This document shows, piece after piece, positions 10,373 to 63,676 of a DNA stretch of 64,000 nt (position 1 is the first letter of the stretch; each line of letters starts with the position of its first letter). Made by a program: the position numbers and the translations under genes. The notes under the pieces were generated by a model. That model saw only the letters and a list, made by a program, of their open reading frames with translations. It made no database searches and was not told the origin of the DNA. The stretch is from NCBI GenBank assembly GCA_964017155.1, contig OZ024856.1:47038847-47102846 (forward strand). The letters are read 5' to 3'. Origin of the DNA: Oasisia sp. SBJ-2009. Lineage: Eukaryota; Annelida; Polychaeta; Sabellida; Siboglinidae.

Positions 10373-11111
10373 TTGCCCGTCCTTTGGTCGGTGTCCTCCG
10401 ATTAGCTCATAATATTTGAATTCTTCGTGAGTTAATATTTTATTATGACATTTTGTTTAAATTGTATTTTATGGTTATGGCATACAAGCCTGTAAATTTG
10501 TCTTTCAAGCACAGATGGGTAACTACATGTATTGAACCCATTGTGCTGTTCCAATTAACGTTTTATTCTGTACTGGTATAAAAAATTAAATTGTTTTTTA
10601 TAAACTATATATTAAAAAACTAGTATTACTTGTTGCGGTCATTAAGAGAGCTGTTAGATAGGAGCTGGGGAACTCCCCTCCCCCTGATCTTGCTCAATCT
10701 CGGACGTCTTGTTGTTTTTAGTACAGTATCAAAAGTTTTTATCCACGTGACGGTGCTGTGTGTTCGAACAGCCCCAGCTCGGATGTATTAGCTGTGGTCA
10801 TAATATTAGTTGATATCTGTTTAAGAAATAGTGTACACATCTATTGAAAAGAGCTTTACATCAACTGTCTCCATGATTATATCTGCATTATTGTGGAGTT
10901 TTGTGCACGTTATTGCTTATCAATGGTATAATTATATACAGTAGATTCGTGTAGTTGTCTAAATGGCAGTACAGCTGTAATGGTTCCAATCCCATAGCCG
11001 CTTGCTCTGACTTTCTGAGCTGCTCCTGTGAGTGCTCTTCCTCCTTTTACAAGCAGCTCTGGCTCTATGAAGAGCACAGCTCCTGTCACTTGCTGTGTCT
11101 GTCTCTGTCAT

Positions 11112-44400: not shown

Positions 44401-44614
44401 TCGAGTCTCAGTATCCCAACCACGAGTTCGACCGAGTCGCACAACTCGCGCCCGAAGTCTTGGAGTGGGCGCCCCCTGTGGCTAGAGAAGGAGTACGCAG
44501 TGCGCATCAAAGTGCCGCACACCTTCGTCGTACACAACTACAAGAAACCCACCGTCTGCCAACTGTGCAAGAAACTGCTGCGGGGGCTCTTTAGGCAGGG
44601 CCTCCAGTGTAAAG
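44401..44614 (+). CDS. PRKD: PRKD exon 5, linker and first part of C1b
   Basis: The acceptor tgtttcag starts [20 protein letters not shown], then [40 protein letters not shown] and [11 protein letters not shown]. The second C1 domain starts at HTFVVHNY with H-x12-C-x2-C-x13-C intact; C1b is the high-affinity phorbol-ester binder of PKD. The donor AAAG|gtaact is phase 1 and its position matches that in C1a. The last 42 bases of sequence around this donor are repeated 16 times downstream, so the border given here is the first of many identical donors; it is chosen because it gives a normal C1b. Confidence 0.93.
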
Positions 44615-45288
44615 GTAACTTCATAGGGCTCTTCAGGCAGGGCCTCCAGTGTAAAGGTAACTTCATAGGGCTCTTCAGGCAGGGCCTCCAGTGTAAAGGT
44701 AACTTCATAGGGCTCTTCAGGCAGGGCCTCCAGTGTAAAGGTAACTTCATAGGGCTCTTCAGGCAGGGCCTCCAGTGTAAAGGTAACTTCATAGGGCTCT
44801 TCAGGCAGGGCCTCCAGTGTAAAGGTAACTTCATAGGGCTCTTCAGGCAGGGCCTCCAGTGTAAAGGTAACTTCATAGGGCTCTTCAGGCAGGGCCTCCA
44901 GTGTAAAGGTAACTTCATAGGGCTCTTCAGGCAGGGCCTCCAGTGTAAAGGTAACTTCATAGGGCTCTTCAGGCAGGGCCTCCAGTGTAAAGGTAACTTC
45001 ATAGGGCTCTTCAGGCAGGGCCTCCAGTGTAAAGGTAACTTCATAGGGCTCTTCAGGCAGGGCCTCCAGTGTAAAGGTAACTTCATAGGGCTCTTCAGGC
45101 AGGGCCTCCAGTGTAAAGGTAACTTCATAGGGCTCTTCAGGCAGGGCCTCCAGTGTAAAGGTAACTTCATAGGGCTCTTCAGGCAGGGCCTCCAGTGTAA
45201 AGGTAACTTCATAGGGCTCTTCAGGCAGGGCCTCCAGTGTAAAGGTAACTTCATAGGGCTCTTCAGGCAGGGCCTCCAGTGTAAAGGC
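44573..45288 (+). repeat. 42-bp minisatellite spanning the C1b exon donor site (array 1)
   Basis: The unit reads gtaacttcatagggctct, then tcaggcagggcctccagt and gtaaag. Sixteen copies of gtaact occur every 42 bases from 44615 to 45245, followed by a unit end lacking the donor. A degenerate copy follows at about 45299-45330. The units look identical or nearly so. Each contains the end of the exon ([10 protein letters not shown]) plus the donor, and 42 is divisible by three, so the whole array is open: each extra unit would add 14 residues ([14 protein letters not shown]). The homogeneity implies recent or ongoing expansion. Confidence 0.97.
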
Positions 45289-45928
45289 AGGGCTCGTAAG
45301 GCTCTTCAGACAGGGCCTCCAGTGTAAAAGTAGGCCTTACTGGGATCTTCAGATTGAGCCTAGATTATGTAGGTTGTCCTCATTTAGTTCTACACACATT
45401 GCCTCAGTTTAAAGTAAGACTCACTGAGCCCTGCAGAGAGAGAGAGAGAGAACCTCTAGTATAAAGAGGAGTGAATGGGCTGTTCAAATAGGGAGAGTGA
45501 AAAGAAGGCCCACAATAGGTAGGTAGTACTAGGTCCCATGATACTTAAGACAAGGCCTACAAAGTATTTGTTTGGCTGGCTTGTGTGGGATACATCCTAC
45601 CGAGTTCTTTGTAGACTTTGTCATTTTAAAACCACTTCTAAGGAGGAAACAAGAATCTGTTGAACTGTTGCACAGTTATGAAAGGCCTTTTTAGTCATGT
45701 CCAGTGTGTATGTTTTTTTGTTAATATATATATCTGTCTTTTAACATGTGCTTACTTTGTATTTTGTACTATGCAAACCACCTTGTAGAACTGTAGTTCA
45801 CTATAAATTTTGTGTTGGTTATTAATCAGGTATTCATAAAAGTGTTGTTTTAAGATAGTGACACACACAAACTAGTCACAAATGACAAGTAGTGTCCTTC
45901 ACTCTCAAGGTATCTCCTCTGTCTACAG

Positions 45929-46012
45929 ACTGTAAGTTCAACTGCCACAAGAAGTGTGCCCCGCAGGTGCCCAAGAACTGCCAGGGCGAGATGAAGTGGG
46001 TGCCAGGAAGCA
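45929..46012 (+). CDS. PRKD: PRKD exon 6, end of C1b
   Basis: The acceptor is gtctacag. The translation (D)[17 protein letters not shown] completes C1b (C-x4-H-x2-C-x7-C), then [10 protein letters not shown] follows. The phase-1 junction with exon 5 restores QCK-D-CKFN, the usual PKD text. The donor GCA|gtaagt is phase 1. All eight zinc ligands of C1b are present across the two exons. Confidence 0.95.
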
Positions 46013-51309: not shown

Positions 51310-51433
51310 CCCGAATGAGAGTAACAACATTCCGTTGATGCGCGTCGTTCAGTCGGTGAAGAACACGAAGAGAGCTGGGTCAAATATCATCCGCGAAGGC
51401 TGGATGGTACACTTCACAAACAGAGACAATCTT
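51310..51433 (+). CDS. PRKD: PRKD exon 8, entry to PH domain
   Basis: The acceptor is ttcttgtag. The translation (S)[18 protein letters not shown], then [20 protein letters not shown] and DNL contains [14 protein letters not shown], a PKD signature, and the first beta strand of PH (EGWMVHFT). The donor CTT|gtaagt is phase 0. This border is also the first unit of a 45-bp tandem array; the first donor is chosen because exon 9 (RKRHYWKL) then continues the PH fold normally. A hAT-like MITE ends only 49 bases upstream of the acceptor. Confidence 0.94.
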
Positions 51434-53080
51434 GTAAGTGTAGGTGGGATGGTACACTTCACAAACAGAGACAATCTTGTAAGTGTAGGTGGGATGGTAC
51501 ACTTCACAAACAGAGACAATCTTGTAAGTGTAGGTGGGATGGTACACTTCACAAACAGAGACAATCTTGTAAGTGTAGGTAGGATGGTGCACTTCACAAA
51601 CAGAGACAATCTTGTAAGTGTAGGTGGGATGGTGCACTTCACAAACAGAGACAATCTTGTAAGTGTAGGTGGGATGGTGCACTTCACAAACAGAGACAAT
51701 CTTGTAAGTGTAGGTGGGATGGTACACTTCACAAACAGAGACAATCTTGTAAGTGTAGGTGGGATGGTACACTTCACAAACAGAGACAATCTTGTAAATG
51801 TAGGTAGGATGGTGCACTTTACAAACAGAGACAATATTGTAAGTGTAGGTGGGATGGTTCACTTCACAAACAGAGACAATCTTGTAAGTGTAGGTGGGAT
51901 GGTACACTTCACAAACAGAGACAATCTTGTAAGTGTAGGTGGGATGGTACACTTCACAAACAGAGACAATCTTGTAAGTGTAGGTGGGATGGTACACTTC
52001 ACAAACAGAGACAATCTTGTAAGTGTAGGTGGGATGGTACACTTCACAAACAGAGACAATCTTGTAAGTGTAGGTGGGATGGTACACTTCACAAACAGAG
52101 ACAATCTTGTAAGTGTAGGTGGGATGGTACACTTCACAAACAGAGACAATCTTGTAAGTGTAGGTGGGATGGTACACTTCACAAACAGACAATCTTGTAA
52201 GTGTAGGTGGGATGGTACACTTCACAAACAGAGACAATCTTGTAAGTGTAGGTGGGATGGTGCACTTCACAAACAGAGACAATCTTGTAAGTGTAGGTGG
52301 GATGGTACACTTCACAAACAGAGACAATCTTGTAAGTGTAGGTGGGATGGTACACTTCACAAACAGAGACAATCTTGTAAGTGTAGGTAGGATGGTGCAC
52401 TTCACAAACAGAGACAATCTTGTAAGTGTAGGTGGGATGGTGCACTTCACAAACAGAGACAATCTTGTAAGTGTAGGTGGGATGGTGCACTTCACAAACA
52501 GAGACAATCTTGTAAGTGTAGGTAGGATGGTACACTTCACAAACAGAGACAATCTTGTAAGTGTAGGTAGGATGGTGCACTTCACAAACAGAAACAATCT
52601 TGTAAGTGTAGGATGGTGCACTTCACAAACAGAGACAATCTTGTAAGTGTAGGTAGGATGGTGCACTTCACAAACAGAAACAATCTTGTAAGTGTAGGTA
52701 GGATGGTACACTTCACAAACAGAGACAATCTTGTAAGTGTAGGTAGGATGGTACACTTCACAAACAGAGACAATCTTGTAAGTGTAGGTAGGATGGTACA
52801 CTTCACAAACAGAGACAATCTTGTAAGTGTAGGTAGGATTGTACACTTCACAAACAGAGACAATCTTGTAAGTGTAGGTAGGATGGTGCACTTTACAAAC
52901 AGAGACAATCTTGTAAGTGTAGGATGGTACACTTCATAGATAGAGATAATATTGTAATTGTAGGATGGTAAACTTCACAAATAGCGATAAACTTATAAGT
53001 GTAGGATGGTACACTTCACAGAGACTACCTTGTAAGTGTAGGATGGTTACACTTCACAAATAGAGACATTATTGTGAGTG
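51398..53080 (+). repeat. 45-bp minisatellite spanning the PH exon donor site (array 2)
   Basis: The unit reads gtaagtgtaggtgggatg, then gtacacttcacaaacaga and gacaatctt. Donor-bearing units occur every 45 bases from 51434 to 52154 (17). After a 2-base deletion they continue from 52197 to 52602 (10), and after a 4-base deletion from 52643 to 52913 (7). Four or so degenerate units run to about 53080. One unit at 51794 has gtaaat. Each regular unit adds [15 protein letters not shown] in frame; the deletions shift the frame further in. Variants (gtggg/gtagg, tac/tgc) are unevenly distributed, with gtagg concentrated in the 3' part. Confidence 0.97.
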
Positions 53081-53193
53081 TAAAAGAATTATTAGCAATG
53101 GAATTTTCACAGAGTGTGTTTGGTCCAGGTTATTCTGCGACTGTCTGCTCTGCTATTACTTCTCTATTGTAAATGCTGTATTCTTTTCTGCAG

Positions 53194-53271
53194 AGGAAAC
53201 GTCATTATTGGAAACTTGATACCAAGTCAATCACAATGTACCAGAAGGAGAATGACAGTCGCTACTTCAAG
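53194..53271 (+). CDS. PRKD: PRKD exon 9, PH domain strands
   Basis: The acceptor is ttctgcag and the donor AAG|gtgagt, phase 0 on both sides, 26 codons. The translation [20 protein letters not shown], then DSRYFK continues the PH fold; the KRHYWKLD strand is conserved throughout PKDs. It joins exon 8 as TNRDNL-RKRHYW. Confidence 0.95.
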
Positions 53272-53590: not shown

Positions 53591-53858
53591 GACATACCTC
53601 TGAGCGACATCGGCCAGGTGGAACTCACGAATTCGCCCCAGAGCATCGACGCGACGCGTAACCCACACGTGTTTGAGTTCCGTGTCAACAGCACAGTGTA
53701 CTACGTGGGGGAGGACCCGACCTGTCGAGGGCAGGAGGACAACATCGTCACCTCCGTGGAGAGCGGGATCGGCCTGGAGCAGGCGTTGTCGTGGGAGAAC
53801 GCCATCAGGCAGGCCCTCATGCCCGTCACGGCCAAACACAGTCCAAAGGGAGATGCAA
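53591..53858 (+). CDS. PRKD: PRKD exon 10, rest of PH domain
   Basis: The acceptor is cgccaccag. The translation begins DIPLSDIGQVELTNSP, continues with HVFEFRVNSTVYYVGEDP and ends the PH domain with the helix LSWENAIRQALMPV, containing the invariant PH tryptophan, then TAKHSPKGDA. In PKD the PH domain autoinhibits the kinase. The donor CAA|gtaggt is phase 1. A MITE copy begins within about 8 bases of this border. The exon is notably GC-richer than its introns. Confidence 0.94.
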
Positions 53859-60211: not shown

Positions 60212-60979
60212 TCATGTGATGTCCATATATCGTGCGCCGTCAGTCAGAAATATCTTCTTGTCGACGGTGATCTCGATGTAGAAGTGGGGCAGCTGCATGC
60301 ACCCGGCACTGCGGTGGTTCTCGTCCTTACAACATGTCCACTTCCCCCCTCGGAGGGCACGGAAATGCACCCGGCACACCTGCGGCTTCTGCGGCTGGTA
60401 CTCGCTTCGACAGAACATGCAGTAGCGACTCATTGTCTTGTTCGTCGCCTCCAGACTGAAGCTGCGGTCGATCGACGGTAACCGTAATTCGGCGCTGACC
60501 CGCGGGCCGACGTTTGCCGTGAGCATCGAGTGAGCGGCCTCGATCGTATCGCGAGCGTCTCGCCGTCGGTACATCTTCTTGAGCGTTAGGTTCTGCTGCC
60601 GCATGTGGAACTCGATCTTCTCCTTCTCGCGCATCAGCACGTTGAGTCGCTCCTCCACCGCTACCTTCGATTGTCTCATCTTCGTCAGTTCGGTCTTGAT
60701 CTTCTGTAGTTCGGTCCGACTCATCGTTCCGTTCTCGACGATCTCGAGGATCCGGGACTGGATCTGTTCCTCGTCTGCGTCAGCGCTCAGGTTTAGGGTC
60801 TCCTTGTACTTGCGTTCCCGCCGCTGGAGCTTGTCGAGTTCTTTCTGCTTCTCGTCCTGCTCTGAGGCAACGGTGGAGAGCTCAGATTCGAGTTCCTTCA
60901 CCTTCGCCTGCGACTGTTCCAGTTGCTCTTCCAGAGCCTTCATTTCCTGTTGCTGTCGCGGCGTTGCCATCATCTGTAC
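60212..60979 (-). CDS. Antisense gene, last exon: coiled coil plus C-terminal Cys/His box
   Basis: The acceptor gccacag on the minus strand opens VQMMATPRQQQEMKALEEQL. About 140 residues of heptad-rich coiled coil follow (KVKELESELS, KQKELDKLQR, KEKIEFHMRQ), then a linker and a Cys/His-rich end: CMFC, then CRVHF, then WTCC, GCMQLPHF and a hydrophobic tail, with TGA at 60214-60212. The spacing C-x2-C, C-x2-H, W-x-CC, GC-x4-H looks like a small zinc-binding fold, but I do not recognise the family. The exon is GC-rich relative to its flanks and has human-like codon spread, so it is real. It is in phase 0 with the exon at 62496-62965. The protein may be a scaffold or adaptor. Confidence 0.85.
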   Translation of the reverse strand, partial: VQMMATPRQQQEMKALEEQLEQSQAKVKELESELSTVASEQDEKQKELDKLQRRERKYKETLNLSADADEEQIQSRILEIVENGTMSRTELQKIKTELTKMRQSKVAVEERLNVLMREKEKIEFHMRQQNLTLKKMYRRRDARDTIEAAHSMLTANVGPRVSAELRLPSIDRSFSLEATNKTMSRYCMFCRSEYQPQKPQVCRVHFRALRGGKWTCCKDENHRSAGCMQLPHFYIEITVDKKIFLTDGARYMDIT

Positions 60980-61039
60980 CTGTGGCAGACAAAAGGGGAT
61001 TATAGCGAGAGATCGTATCCTCTGTTCCTTAAAAAATAT

Positions 61040-61340
61040 TGTAAAGCCTTAATTTATTTTTTAGATGTATTTATTTTAATGTTTTAAGCTATTTATTATT
61101 TTTTTATAAGTTTAGTCAAATAATCACATAAAATATGTTTTAATGTCTGAAATTATTTTAATTAGTTTTATAGATAGATATCGTGTATTCTCTACATTTT
61201 ATTTTATATTTACAGTAATGTCTTAAATTATATATTATTTGAATCTATGTTAACAAATATACTTTGCATGTTTTATATACCCATTTCAAACTCTATGATT
61301 GCCCAGAGTGAAATAAACTATTAATATTATATTATTATTT
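61040..61340 (+). mobile_element. Interspersed repeat, plus copy
   Basis: Plus-strand partner of 49615-49935, ending attgcccagagtgaaataaa, then ctattaatattatattatta. It lies in the last intron of the antisense gene. Confidence 0.65.
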
Positions 61341-61889: not shown

Positions 61890-62430
61890 AATTAGAAGTG
61901 AGGAATAAAAGAGTGAATCAGTGAGACTCTAGAAGAAAGAGACCAACAATGAGACTGCAGGAGAAAGAGAACAAGAAAGAGACCCATGGAGTAAGAGACC
62001 AACAATGAGACTCTAGAAGAAAGAGACCAACAGTGAGACTCTAGAAGAAAGAGACCAACAGTGAGACTCTAGAAGAAAGAGACCAACAACGAGACTGCAA
62101 GAGAAAGAGAACAAGAAAGAGACCCATGGAGTAAGAGACCAACAATGAGACTCTAGAAGAAAGAGACCAACAGTGAGACTCTAGAAGAAAGAGACCAACA
62201 GTGAGACTCTAGAAGAAAGAGACCAACAGTGAGACTCTAGAAGAAAGAGACCAACAACGAGACTGCAAGAGAAAGAGAACAAGAAAGAGACCCATGGAGT
62301 AAGAGACCAACAATGAGACTCTAGAAGAAAGAGACCAACAACGAGACTCAAAGAGAAAAAGACCAGCAATGAGACTCAAGAAGAAAGAGACCAGCAACGA
62401 GACTCAAGCAGAAGTAGGCTCAAGGAGAAA
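61890..62430. repeat. 28-bp purine-strand minisatellite in antisense-gene intron
   Basis: Repeats of gagactctagaagaaa plus gagaccaacagt, with a higher-order segment (gcaagagaaagagaacaaga, then aagagacccatggagtaa) recurring about every 135-180 bases. The strand asymmetry (nearly all purine on +) could favour triplex or R-loop structures. Confidence 0.9.
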
Positions 62431-62495
62431 GAGACCAGAGCCCGACACAATGAGCGTGACCTCAGTGACCTCCAGCCACGAGGCATGTGTCTCAC

Positions 62496-62965
62496 CTGCA
62501 TGTGGTTGAGCTGGCGGATGATGTCGAGGTACTTGCTGTTCAGCTCGAGCGTGTCCTGGTACTCCTGCTGTGTCTCGTCCAGGATCTCCTTCAGCTTGCC
62601 GTACTCCTCATCCTTCCTCACGATCACGCTGTCCTTCTCCCTCAGCATCTGTCTCATCTCGTCCTCCAGCGACGGCACGTCCCACTTCGCCACGCTCATC
62701 CGACTGGTGGCGCCACCTGCCGGCGAGTCGGGCGTACTCAGTCGGCTCGTGCGGCCGGGGGTCGTGAGGTCGTTGCTCAGGTCGGAGCGCTGTCGGAGCG
62801 TCATCTTCGCCTCGAGCGCCCGGTTGGCAGTGTCCAGTTTGCTCTGCAGGTCCGTGATGTCCGTCTGGTGAAGTGATTTGGGGATGATGAGCATCGCGAG
62901 GGTTTTGAGTTTCGCCTCGGGGATGTCGGGGAGTTCGGTCTGGAGCAGCTGCATGGTTCTCTTGT
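62496..62965 (-). CDS. Antisense gene, internal exon: coiled-coil segment
   Basis: The acceptor gaccccag precedes ACAAGAGAACC on the minus strand. The translation KRTMQLLQTELPDIPEAKLK leads into TDITDLQSKLDTANRALEAK, a Ser/Thr/Pro-rich stretch (TTPGRTSRLSTPDSPAGG) and then SLEDEMRQMLREKDSVIVRK with further coiled coil to IIRQLNHMQ. The donor CAG|gtgaga is phase 0, matching the next exon. The TP/SP sites in the middle could be phosphorylated by proline-directed kinases; this is inference. Confidence 0.85.
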
Positions 62966-63676
62966 CTGGGGTCGGGGCTGAAACAAGACGACTTTCATTC
63001 CAAACAAATTTCGCAATTACACAACCAGCAATGTTCTACTTGCTTCTACGTTTCGACCACCATCAGCGGCCTACCTCAGGAACTGAATGTTCAGTGGTCA
63101 CTGCTCGCTAGATGGCGTGACGAGCAGACTGTCCCAAATGTGACTTAGTCTGTAGCCCCCCTTGTCTCTGTTCAGTGTAATTATGAAATTTGTTTGGAAT
63201 AATATACTGCCAACTTAATGAACATTTTCACGAAAGATGACTTCCAGTTGGAATCATGATGAGATATGGATACAGCAGGGTCTAGAATTCAAATCAGTGC
63301 TGGTGGGTTCAACTGGTGGTTTATTCAAGCTGCACAGATAAAATAAAACTTGTTATGATTCCAATGGTCCCATTGTGGTTCTGGTGTCATTATCTTTTGA
63401 AGACGGTGGATGTACAGCGATGTGAAATGGCTGTGTAATGCTGTAGTTATATAATGTTCAACTGCAATTGTCTCTTTCAAGTTCTTGTATTTTACTTTAT
63501 TTTATGTAGAGATAGCTTCCAAAACCCTGCTCGTGATGTTGCTGTTATGTTAATGTATTTGTTCCTAATACTAAATATAGACAACGTTGGAAACTATTTA
63601 AAAGTTTTCACCCAACTATTGTACACAAAGTCTTATTCTGCCACTGATGCAGTGAGACATGTCAATGTCCAGCTAC
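62966..63676. other. Intron of the antisense gene, nothing recognised
   Basis: Phase-1 intron on the minus strand. The text tacgtttcgaccaccatcag near 63050 weakly recalls the core of the foldback family, too short to call. Confidence 0.5.

Follow-up and report, generated by a model that had tools for sequence, protein, structure and literature searches.

The window analysed here, a stretch of 64,000 nucleotides from the tubeworm Oasisia sp., holds on its plus strand a gene that is, judged by its predicted protein, protein kinase D (PKD). A C1 domain, an acidic stretch, a PH domain and the start of a kinase domain follow one another in its exons, with the C1, PH and kinase parts in the order found in PKD, and the joined exons match Pfam C1_1, PH and Pkinase. 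The C1_1 match of the joined exons stands at 1.4e-18, the joined PH exons match the solved PH domain of PRKD3 (2d9z) at 1.5e-34, with PRKD2 chains also matching, and 6-7 kb beyond the window the same strand carries the rest of the kinase core (L009 6161-7409). The C1 domain is encoded by an exon at 44401..44614, read from the sequence as ending in AAAG at phase 1, and by a second exon of 21 residues at 45929..46012, placed by the sequence and by gene model P0122 of Ridgeia piscesae. The PH domain opens with a 124-nt exon at 51310..51433, ending in CTT at phase 0 and delimited by splice signals in the sequence, by P0122 and by the PRKD3 match; it continues in a second exon of 26 residues at 53194..53271, bounded by a CAG/AGG acceptor and an AAG/GTGAGT donor and likewise present in P0122, and in a third (DIPLSDIGQVEL...) at 53591..53857, taken from the translation and with an approximate 3' end. 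All of these exons lie on the plus strand, and the intron between the first two PH exons, 1,760 bp long, is mostly filled by a tandem array.

Elsewhere in the window, a coiled-coil gene on the minus strand (60212-61048 and 62376-63035) is nested in the PKD gene, sitting between kinase exons, as the motifs HCDLKPEN (L009 6161) and KLCDFG (7346) come after it on the plus strand. A 28-bp array at 61922-62413 was considered as a further exon-end array and rejected, as it is found beyond the donor of an exon on the minus strand and has a pyrimidine-rich unit; read on that strand, the unit resembles a repeated acceptor (CTCTTTCTTCTAG/AG). A 46-bp array at 11111 was considered likewise, but inspection by eye showed no coding sequence in 10800-11110. 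Scans of the whole window for tRNA and Rfam families returned no matches.

The array in the PH intron is a donor-spanning minisatellite, called by TRF at 51402-53082 on the plus strand with a period of 45, 37.9 copies, 93% matches and a score of 2830. Split by hand, it falls into 38 units: 31 measure 45 bp, and the remainder 43 bp (unit 18), 37 bp (unit 37) or 41 bp (units 27, 34, 35, 36 and 38, the last by our own cut). Each 45-bp unit spans the exon/intron boundary, combining 32 exonic with 13 intronic nucleotides; in unit 1, the exonic portion consists of the final 32 nucleotides of the first PH exon. The copies bear the splice signal with them: by exact count, GTAAGT occurs 34 times and CTTGTAAGT (CTT/GTAAGT) 33 times, the variant borders being GTAAAT in unit 9 and ATT/GTAAGT in unit 10. 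Units 1-17 are open and in frame, each further unit adding 15 residues (with R in place of the second G of the repeat in some units), until a 2-bp deletion in unit 18 loses the frame; all 17 are open because a single open 45-bp unit is repeated. For a 1.7-kb array of such identity, chance is no issue, and the first-pass annotation, which had described a 45-bp unit with about 34 donors at the PH exon border and 17 open units, is borne out on both points.

Variation within the array is polarised. Identity to unit 1 is 87-100% across units 1-34 and about 78% in units 35-38, so that the edge units are diverged and the inner ones homogenised. The degenerate tail, units 34-38 at 52881..53082 on the plus strand, closes with the donor GTGAGT and repeats at 41 bp, the fraction of identical letters being 0.573 at lag 41 and no higher than 0.329 at any other lag between 34 and 49. 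The 41-bp form contains TAGG once and the 45-bp form twice, which makes up the four additional bases.

The C1-domain exon carries a structure of the same kind, as the first-pass annotation had also noted: a 42-bp donor-spanning array at 44584..45332 on the plus strand, established by TRF and a unit list. Counted from TGTAAAG, it has 16 identical copies and then decayed ones spaced 43 bp apart, of which two clear copies reach to 45365 and another two, less distinct, to about 45451; 0, 0, 1 and 13 of 500 letter shuffles reached the scores of these four. Its tail shows a same-letter fraction of 0.477 at lag 43 and of at most 0.333 at other lags. The units of the two arrays differ, as had been stated, by a reading of both consensus units without alignment, and the homogeneous blocks on the exon side, of 45 and 42 bp, do keep phase.

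The splice donor that gives the conserved PKD protein, according to the reading frame and P0122, is the GTAAGT of unit 1 (51434..51439, plus strand). Compared as joined peptides, PKD of Oasisia and P0122 of Ridgeia are identical at 284 of 288 residues (98.6%), and P0122 runs through the junctions NL/RKRHYW and QCK/DCKF with no array residues, as would be expected if both exons with an array were spliced at their first donor. Two further open reading frames, P0123 and P0124, for which protein sequences only were compared, continue from DNL to V with no repeat; this would fit a phase-0 intron starting with GT at the same donor position without an array, and suggests that the donor is older than the array. 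Scored with a weight matrix drawn from general knowledge, the first donor ties with 33 other sites and is surpassed by no GT up to 53190; position rather than strength should therefore decide which donor is chosen. From the protein model of the relative, we infer that the spliceosome mostly uses the first donor, while each of the 34 equal-scoring sites could plausibly act as a donor, and some splicing may leak to later ones. In lancelets, RT-PCR led the authors of one study to conclude that comparable repeats seem not to disturb regular splicing (PMC3087553).

The structure is thus real and striking, but it is explainable as a border minisatellite. Very probably, a minisatellite was born over an old donor, has been spliced out from its first copy onwards and is near neutral. 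The seed would have been one local tandem duplication that by chance took in the border between the exon and an intron already in place, giving an early unit of 41 bp; a 4-bp duplication of TAGG would then have produced the 45-bp variant. Through unequal exchange or slippage, this variant would later have spread and become homogeneous next to the exon, with decay at the distal end. The additional copies belong to the intron, and if the spliceosome mostly takes the first donor, the protein would be unchanged and the array close to neutral, because that donor closes the normal 124-nt exon. The 42-bp array on the C1 exon would have arisen likewise and independently, and because the tails repeat at 41 and 43 bp, neither array probably started from a unit divisible by three; a shared mechanism copying whole codons is not supported. 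This account is favoured by the polarised variation, by the lack of array residues in P0122 and of a repeat in P0123 and P0124, and by the general abundance of minisatellites in this genome. Counting against it, homology was part of the evidence, together with ab initio prediction and RNA-seq, from which the Ridgeia gene models were built (PMC9921365).

How unusual two such arrays in one gene are depends on how common minisatellites are at large. Outside the window, 31 arrays of at least 15 bp and at least 3 copies were found in 240 kb, a sample of 24 loci that is not fully random, with 4 loci flanking the window and 2 on short contigs. Taking the Ridgeia count of 24,096 genes (PMC9921365) and an assumed 6-11 donors per gene, random placement would put two donor-spanning arrays into 0.6-2.2 genes if at least 10 copies are required, into 1.4-5.0 at a threshold of 5 copies and into 8-28 at a threshold of 3, so that a reader seeking an odd case could find one by random placement. 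The question of whether arrays gather at donors, raised in the first-pass annotation as a scan of annotated exon ends, was addressed by donor words instead: the 764 Mb of the same genome (33 contigs, 14 of them seen at 42-71 Mb) were searched for three successive donor words 29-59 bp apart, with the reversed word as control, and arrays were counted by our own reading among the first 100 or so sites listed. For CAGGTAAGT, 376 triplet matches included 23 arrays among those listed, to 32 Mb on contig C5, vs 201 matches and 14 arrays in the same territory for the reversed word. As the word itself occurs 6530 times and its reverse 5493 times, the rate ratio per occurrence is 1.38 (interval 0.68-2.9, p 0.21); power is limited, because the reversed word is an imperfect background and, even if it is fair, real donors may make up only about one sixth of the CAGGTAAGT occurrences. 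For CAGGTGAGT, triplet matches numbered 2106 vs 810, and among the matches listed, to 20 Mb on contig C1, 10 arrays stood against 3 (p 0.05 before correction for word frequency, 0.11 with three neighbouring arrays counted once). Pooled, the arrays listed number 33 vs 17, with p 0.016 uncorrected and 0.063 when corrected with the CAGGTAAGT frequencies. Raw triplet matches for the shorter AGGTAAGT ran the other way (1408 vs 2008 reversed), and arrays were counted in place of such matches because large arrays dominate the raw counts. In 304 kb of sampled sequence, word counts were small: with the array masked, 1 vs 4 reversed for CAGGTGAGT and 6 vs 8 for AGGTGAGT, besides 1 vs 2 for CAGGTAAGT, 6 vs 16 for AGGTAAGT and 124 vs 263 for GTAAGT; because CAGGTGAGT is not commoner than its reverse there, its 10 vs 3 may be a true excess. 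A modest excess of arrays at donor words is therefore possible and not established.

Against this background, other readings of the locus can be weighed. Long homogeneous arrays can be mis-sized in assembly and the copy number may be off, but an array that is altogether an assembly artefact is barely credible, given that its units carry scattered differences and end in a decayed tail within a 58-Mb contig. A functional array of donors, in which the nth donor would add 15(n-1) in-frame PH residues and produce a ladder of isoforms, could draw on the 17 open units and on donors of equal score; it is nonetheless highly improbable, since one open unit accounts for all 17 and unit 18 breaks the frame, the protein model of the relative has none of the array, and the sister array would split the zinc-binding C1 domain. 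Another candidate is a mechanism that preferentially makes tandem copies at exon ends, tied for instance to co-transcriptional splicing or R-loops. The presence of two arrays at donors within one gene speaks for it, as do the higher numbers of listed arrays at both donor words, a possible surplus that would also tell against a minisatellite placed purely by chance, and the finding that CAGGTGAGT is not commoner than its reverse in the masked sample. Yet the CAGGTAAGT excess is slight and its interval wide, three of the ten CAGGTGAGT arrays fall in a single stretch of 170 kb, AGGTAAGT triplets are fewer than their reverse, the arrays were counted by donor word and not at verified exon ends, and neutral density can explain two arrays in one gene. 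Such a mechanism is accordingly rated as improbable, and the border minisatellite of chance origin is retained as the preferred account.

The remaining alternative concerns reading frame. It had been proposed that both units are multiples of three, owing either to selection for frame or to a shared mechanism that copies exon ends; the first statement holds for the homogeneous exon-side blocks and fails for the degenerate distal tails of 41 and 43 bp, and neither cause is upheld, as decayed units do not keep the frame in either array and as only 9 of 29 donor-word arrays have periods divisible by three, vs 9.7 by chance. That count, in which arrays were located by word and not by exon end, gives no over-representation of such periods. 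Among the matches listed with a readable period, it comprises 7 of 19 CAGGTAAGT arrays and 2 of 10 CAGGTGAGT arrays; 4 of the 33 arrays, all from the 23 with CAGGTAAGT, were left out as irregular (C1:30279418, C1:35616571, C2:36239911 and C3:9019826, by contig), two CAGGTAAGT arrays with mixed steps (42/21 and 45/18) were entered as multiples of three, and all 10 CAGGTGAGT arrays were kept, with steps varying around 35 bp taken as 35, steps of 13 bp as 13 and steps of 27/54 as a multiple of three. Among minisatellites at large in the sampled sequence, 15 of 31 outside the window, or 21 of 49 with the window included, have such periods, and because they are frequent locally, two in one gene are no strong coincidence: the odds for both expanded units, which remain a point against chance, are 1/9 if one third of arrays qualify and about 0.23 at the local 15/31. 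The frame argument is consequently weak, and a frame-keeping length may well be chance. The one observation still in its favour is that, beside the exon, expansion took place in both arrays only with a unit that is a multiple of three. Selection could act if later donors were occasionally used, since arrays of other periods would then shift the frame and be removed or stay short, and only frame-keeping ones would expand; the contrast between homogeneous blocks (42, 45) and decayed tails (43, 41) in both arrays is in its favour, as are the lancelet PGBD5 splice-site repeats of 60 and 108 bp, both multiples of three (PMC3902484). This reading is nevertheless unlikely, because it rests on two cases where such periods are common locally, because the donor-word arrays, though located by word, give no surplus, because neither the 157-bp unit of lancelet BflGb9 (PMC3087553) nor the 31-bp unit of human CBS (PMC2630376) is a multiple of three, and because residues inserted amid the zinc ligands of the C1 domain would probably do harm even if the frame were kept. 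It is similarly doubtful that frame filters which units grow beside an exon, such that the 43- and 41-bp units stayed few and, once a small indel had made them multiples of three, reached at least 16 copies. If such a filter is real, border minisatellites would record the use of later donors, constituting a natural assay by which splice-site leakage could be measured from genome sequence alone.

In anatomy, the array fits the border minisatellites known as mirages, tandem repeats spanning exon/intron borders that were named in lancelet Adh3 and occur also in globins, where units measure 150-160 and 157 bp (PMC3087553); repeats of 60 and 108 bp overlap splice sites in lancelet PGBD5 (PMC3902484). 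The lancelet cases (Adh3, BflGb6, BflGb9, TnC and PGBD5) share with the tubeworm arrays minisatellite-like copies across an exon/intron boundary, many of them with splice signals, homogenised inside and diverged at the cluster edge, and with variable unit lengths (PMC3087553, PMC3902484). Unlike them, the present case comes from an annelid, with two arrays of at least 16 near-identical units each in one gene, and is known from one assembly and from DNA alone. The human CBS VNTR, c.1444_1467+7(16_21), is also a border-spanning repeat at a donor, in 16-21 copies, whose 31-bp unit comprises 24 exonic and 7 intronic nucleotides by its notation (PMC2630376), but that unit is no multiple of three, and the repeat is a known polymorphism in an unrelated gene. 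Variable internal tandem repeats in human segmental-duplication genes likewise lie at exon-intron boundaries and can alter gene structure; they have been read as making new introns (PMC2812944), whereas the tubeworm donor position looks older than its array. In the open-licence literature searched, only lancelet papers used the name mirage and no annelid or tubeworm precedent for a border minisatellite was found, the nearest annelid case being the minisatellites in the first intron of earthworm metallothionein, which do not appear to lie at exon ends (PMC12783039). The locus thus carries a mirage-like structure into an annelid, so that such structures may arise generally as a by-product wherever a genome is rich in minisatellites. 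It also amounts to a clean experiment of nature on spliceosomal choice when dozens of donors are identical.

Several further observations accompany these results. A 44-bp array at position 21172627 of contig C1 (G000) has a unit reading SDLDDERLYK before AAG/GTAAGT and is possibly an exon-end array, with a period that is not a multiple of three. At L023 9486-10000, a 44-bp array that runs into the end of the stretch carries a minus-strand CAA/GTGAGA in its unit and is possibly donor-spanning. Three CAGGTGAGT arrays with periods of about 35, 31 and 38 bp, at 16714866-16884079 on contig C1, may form a related cluster within 170 kb. COX1 (L013 6983-8569) has its best named match in a siboglinid cluster, at only 86% identity, although PKD reaches 98.6% to Ridgeia, and most other named COX1 matches near the top of the best 120 listed are annelids. 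Together with the PKD identity and the mitochondrial gene order given next, these matches make a siboglinid annelid the most likely host and speak against a lancelet, which the mirage literature had brought to mind. In the first 10,000 of the 15,483 bases of the mitochondrial contig C33, genes named by eye run on one strand in the order ND4L-ND4 and ND1-ND3-ND2-COX1-COX2-COX3, which we take to be the annelid order.
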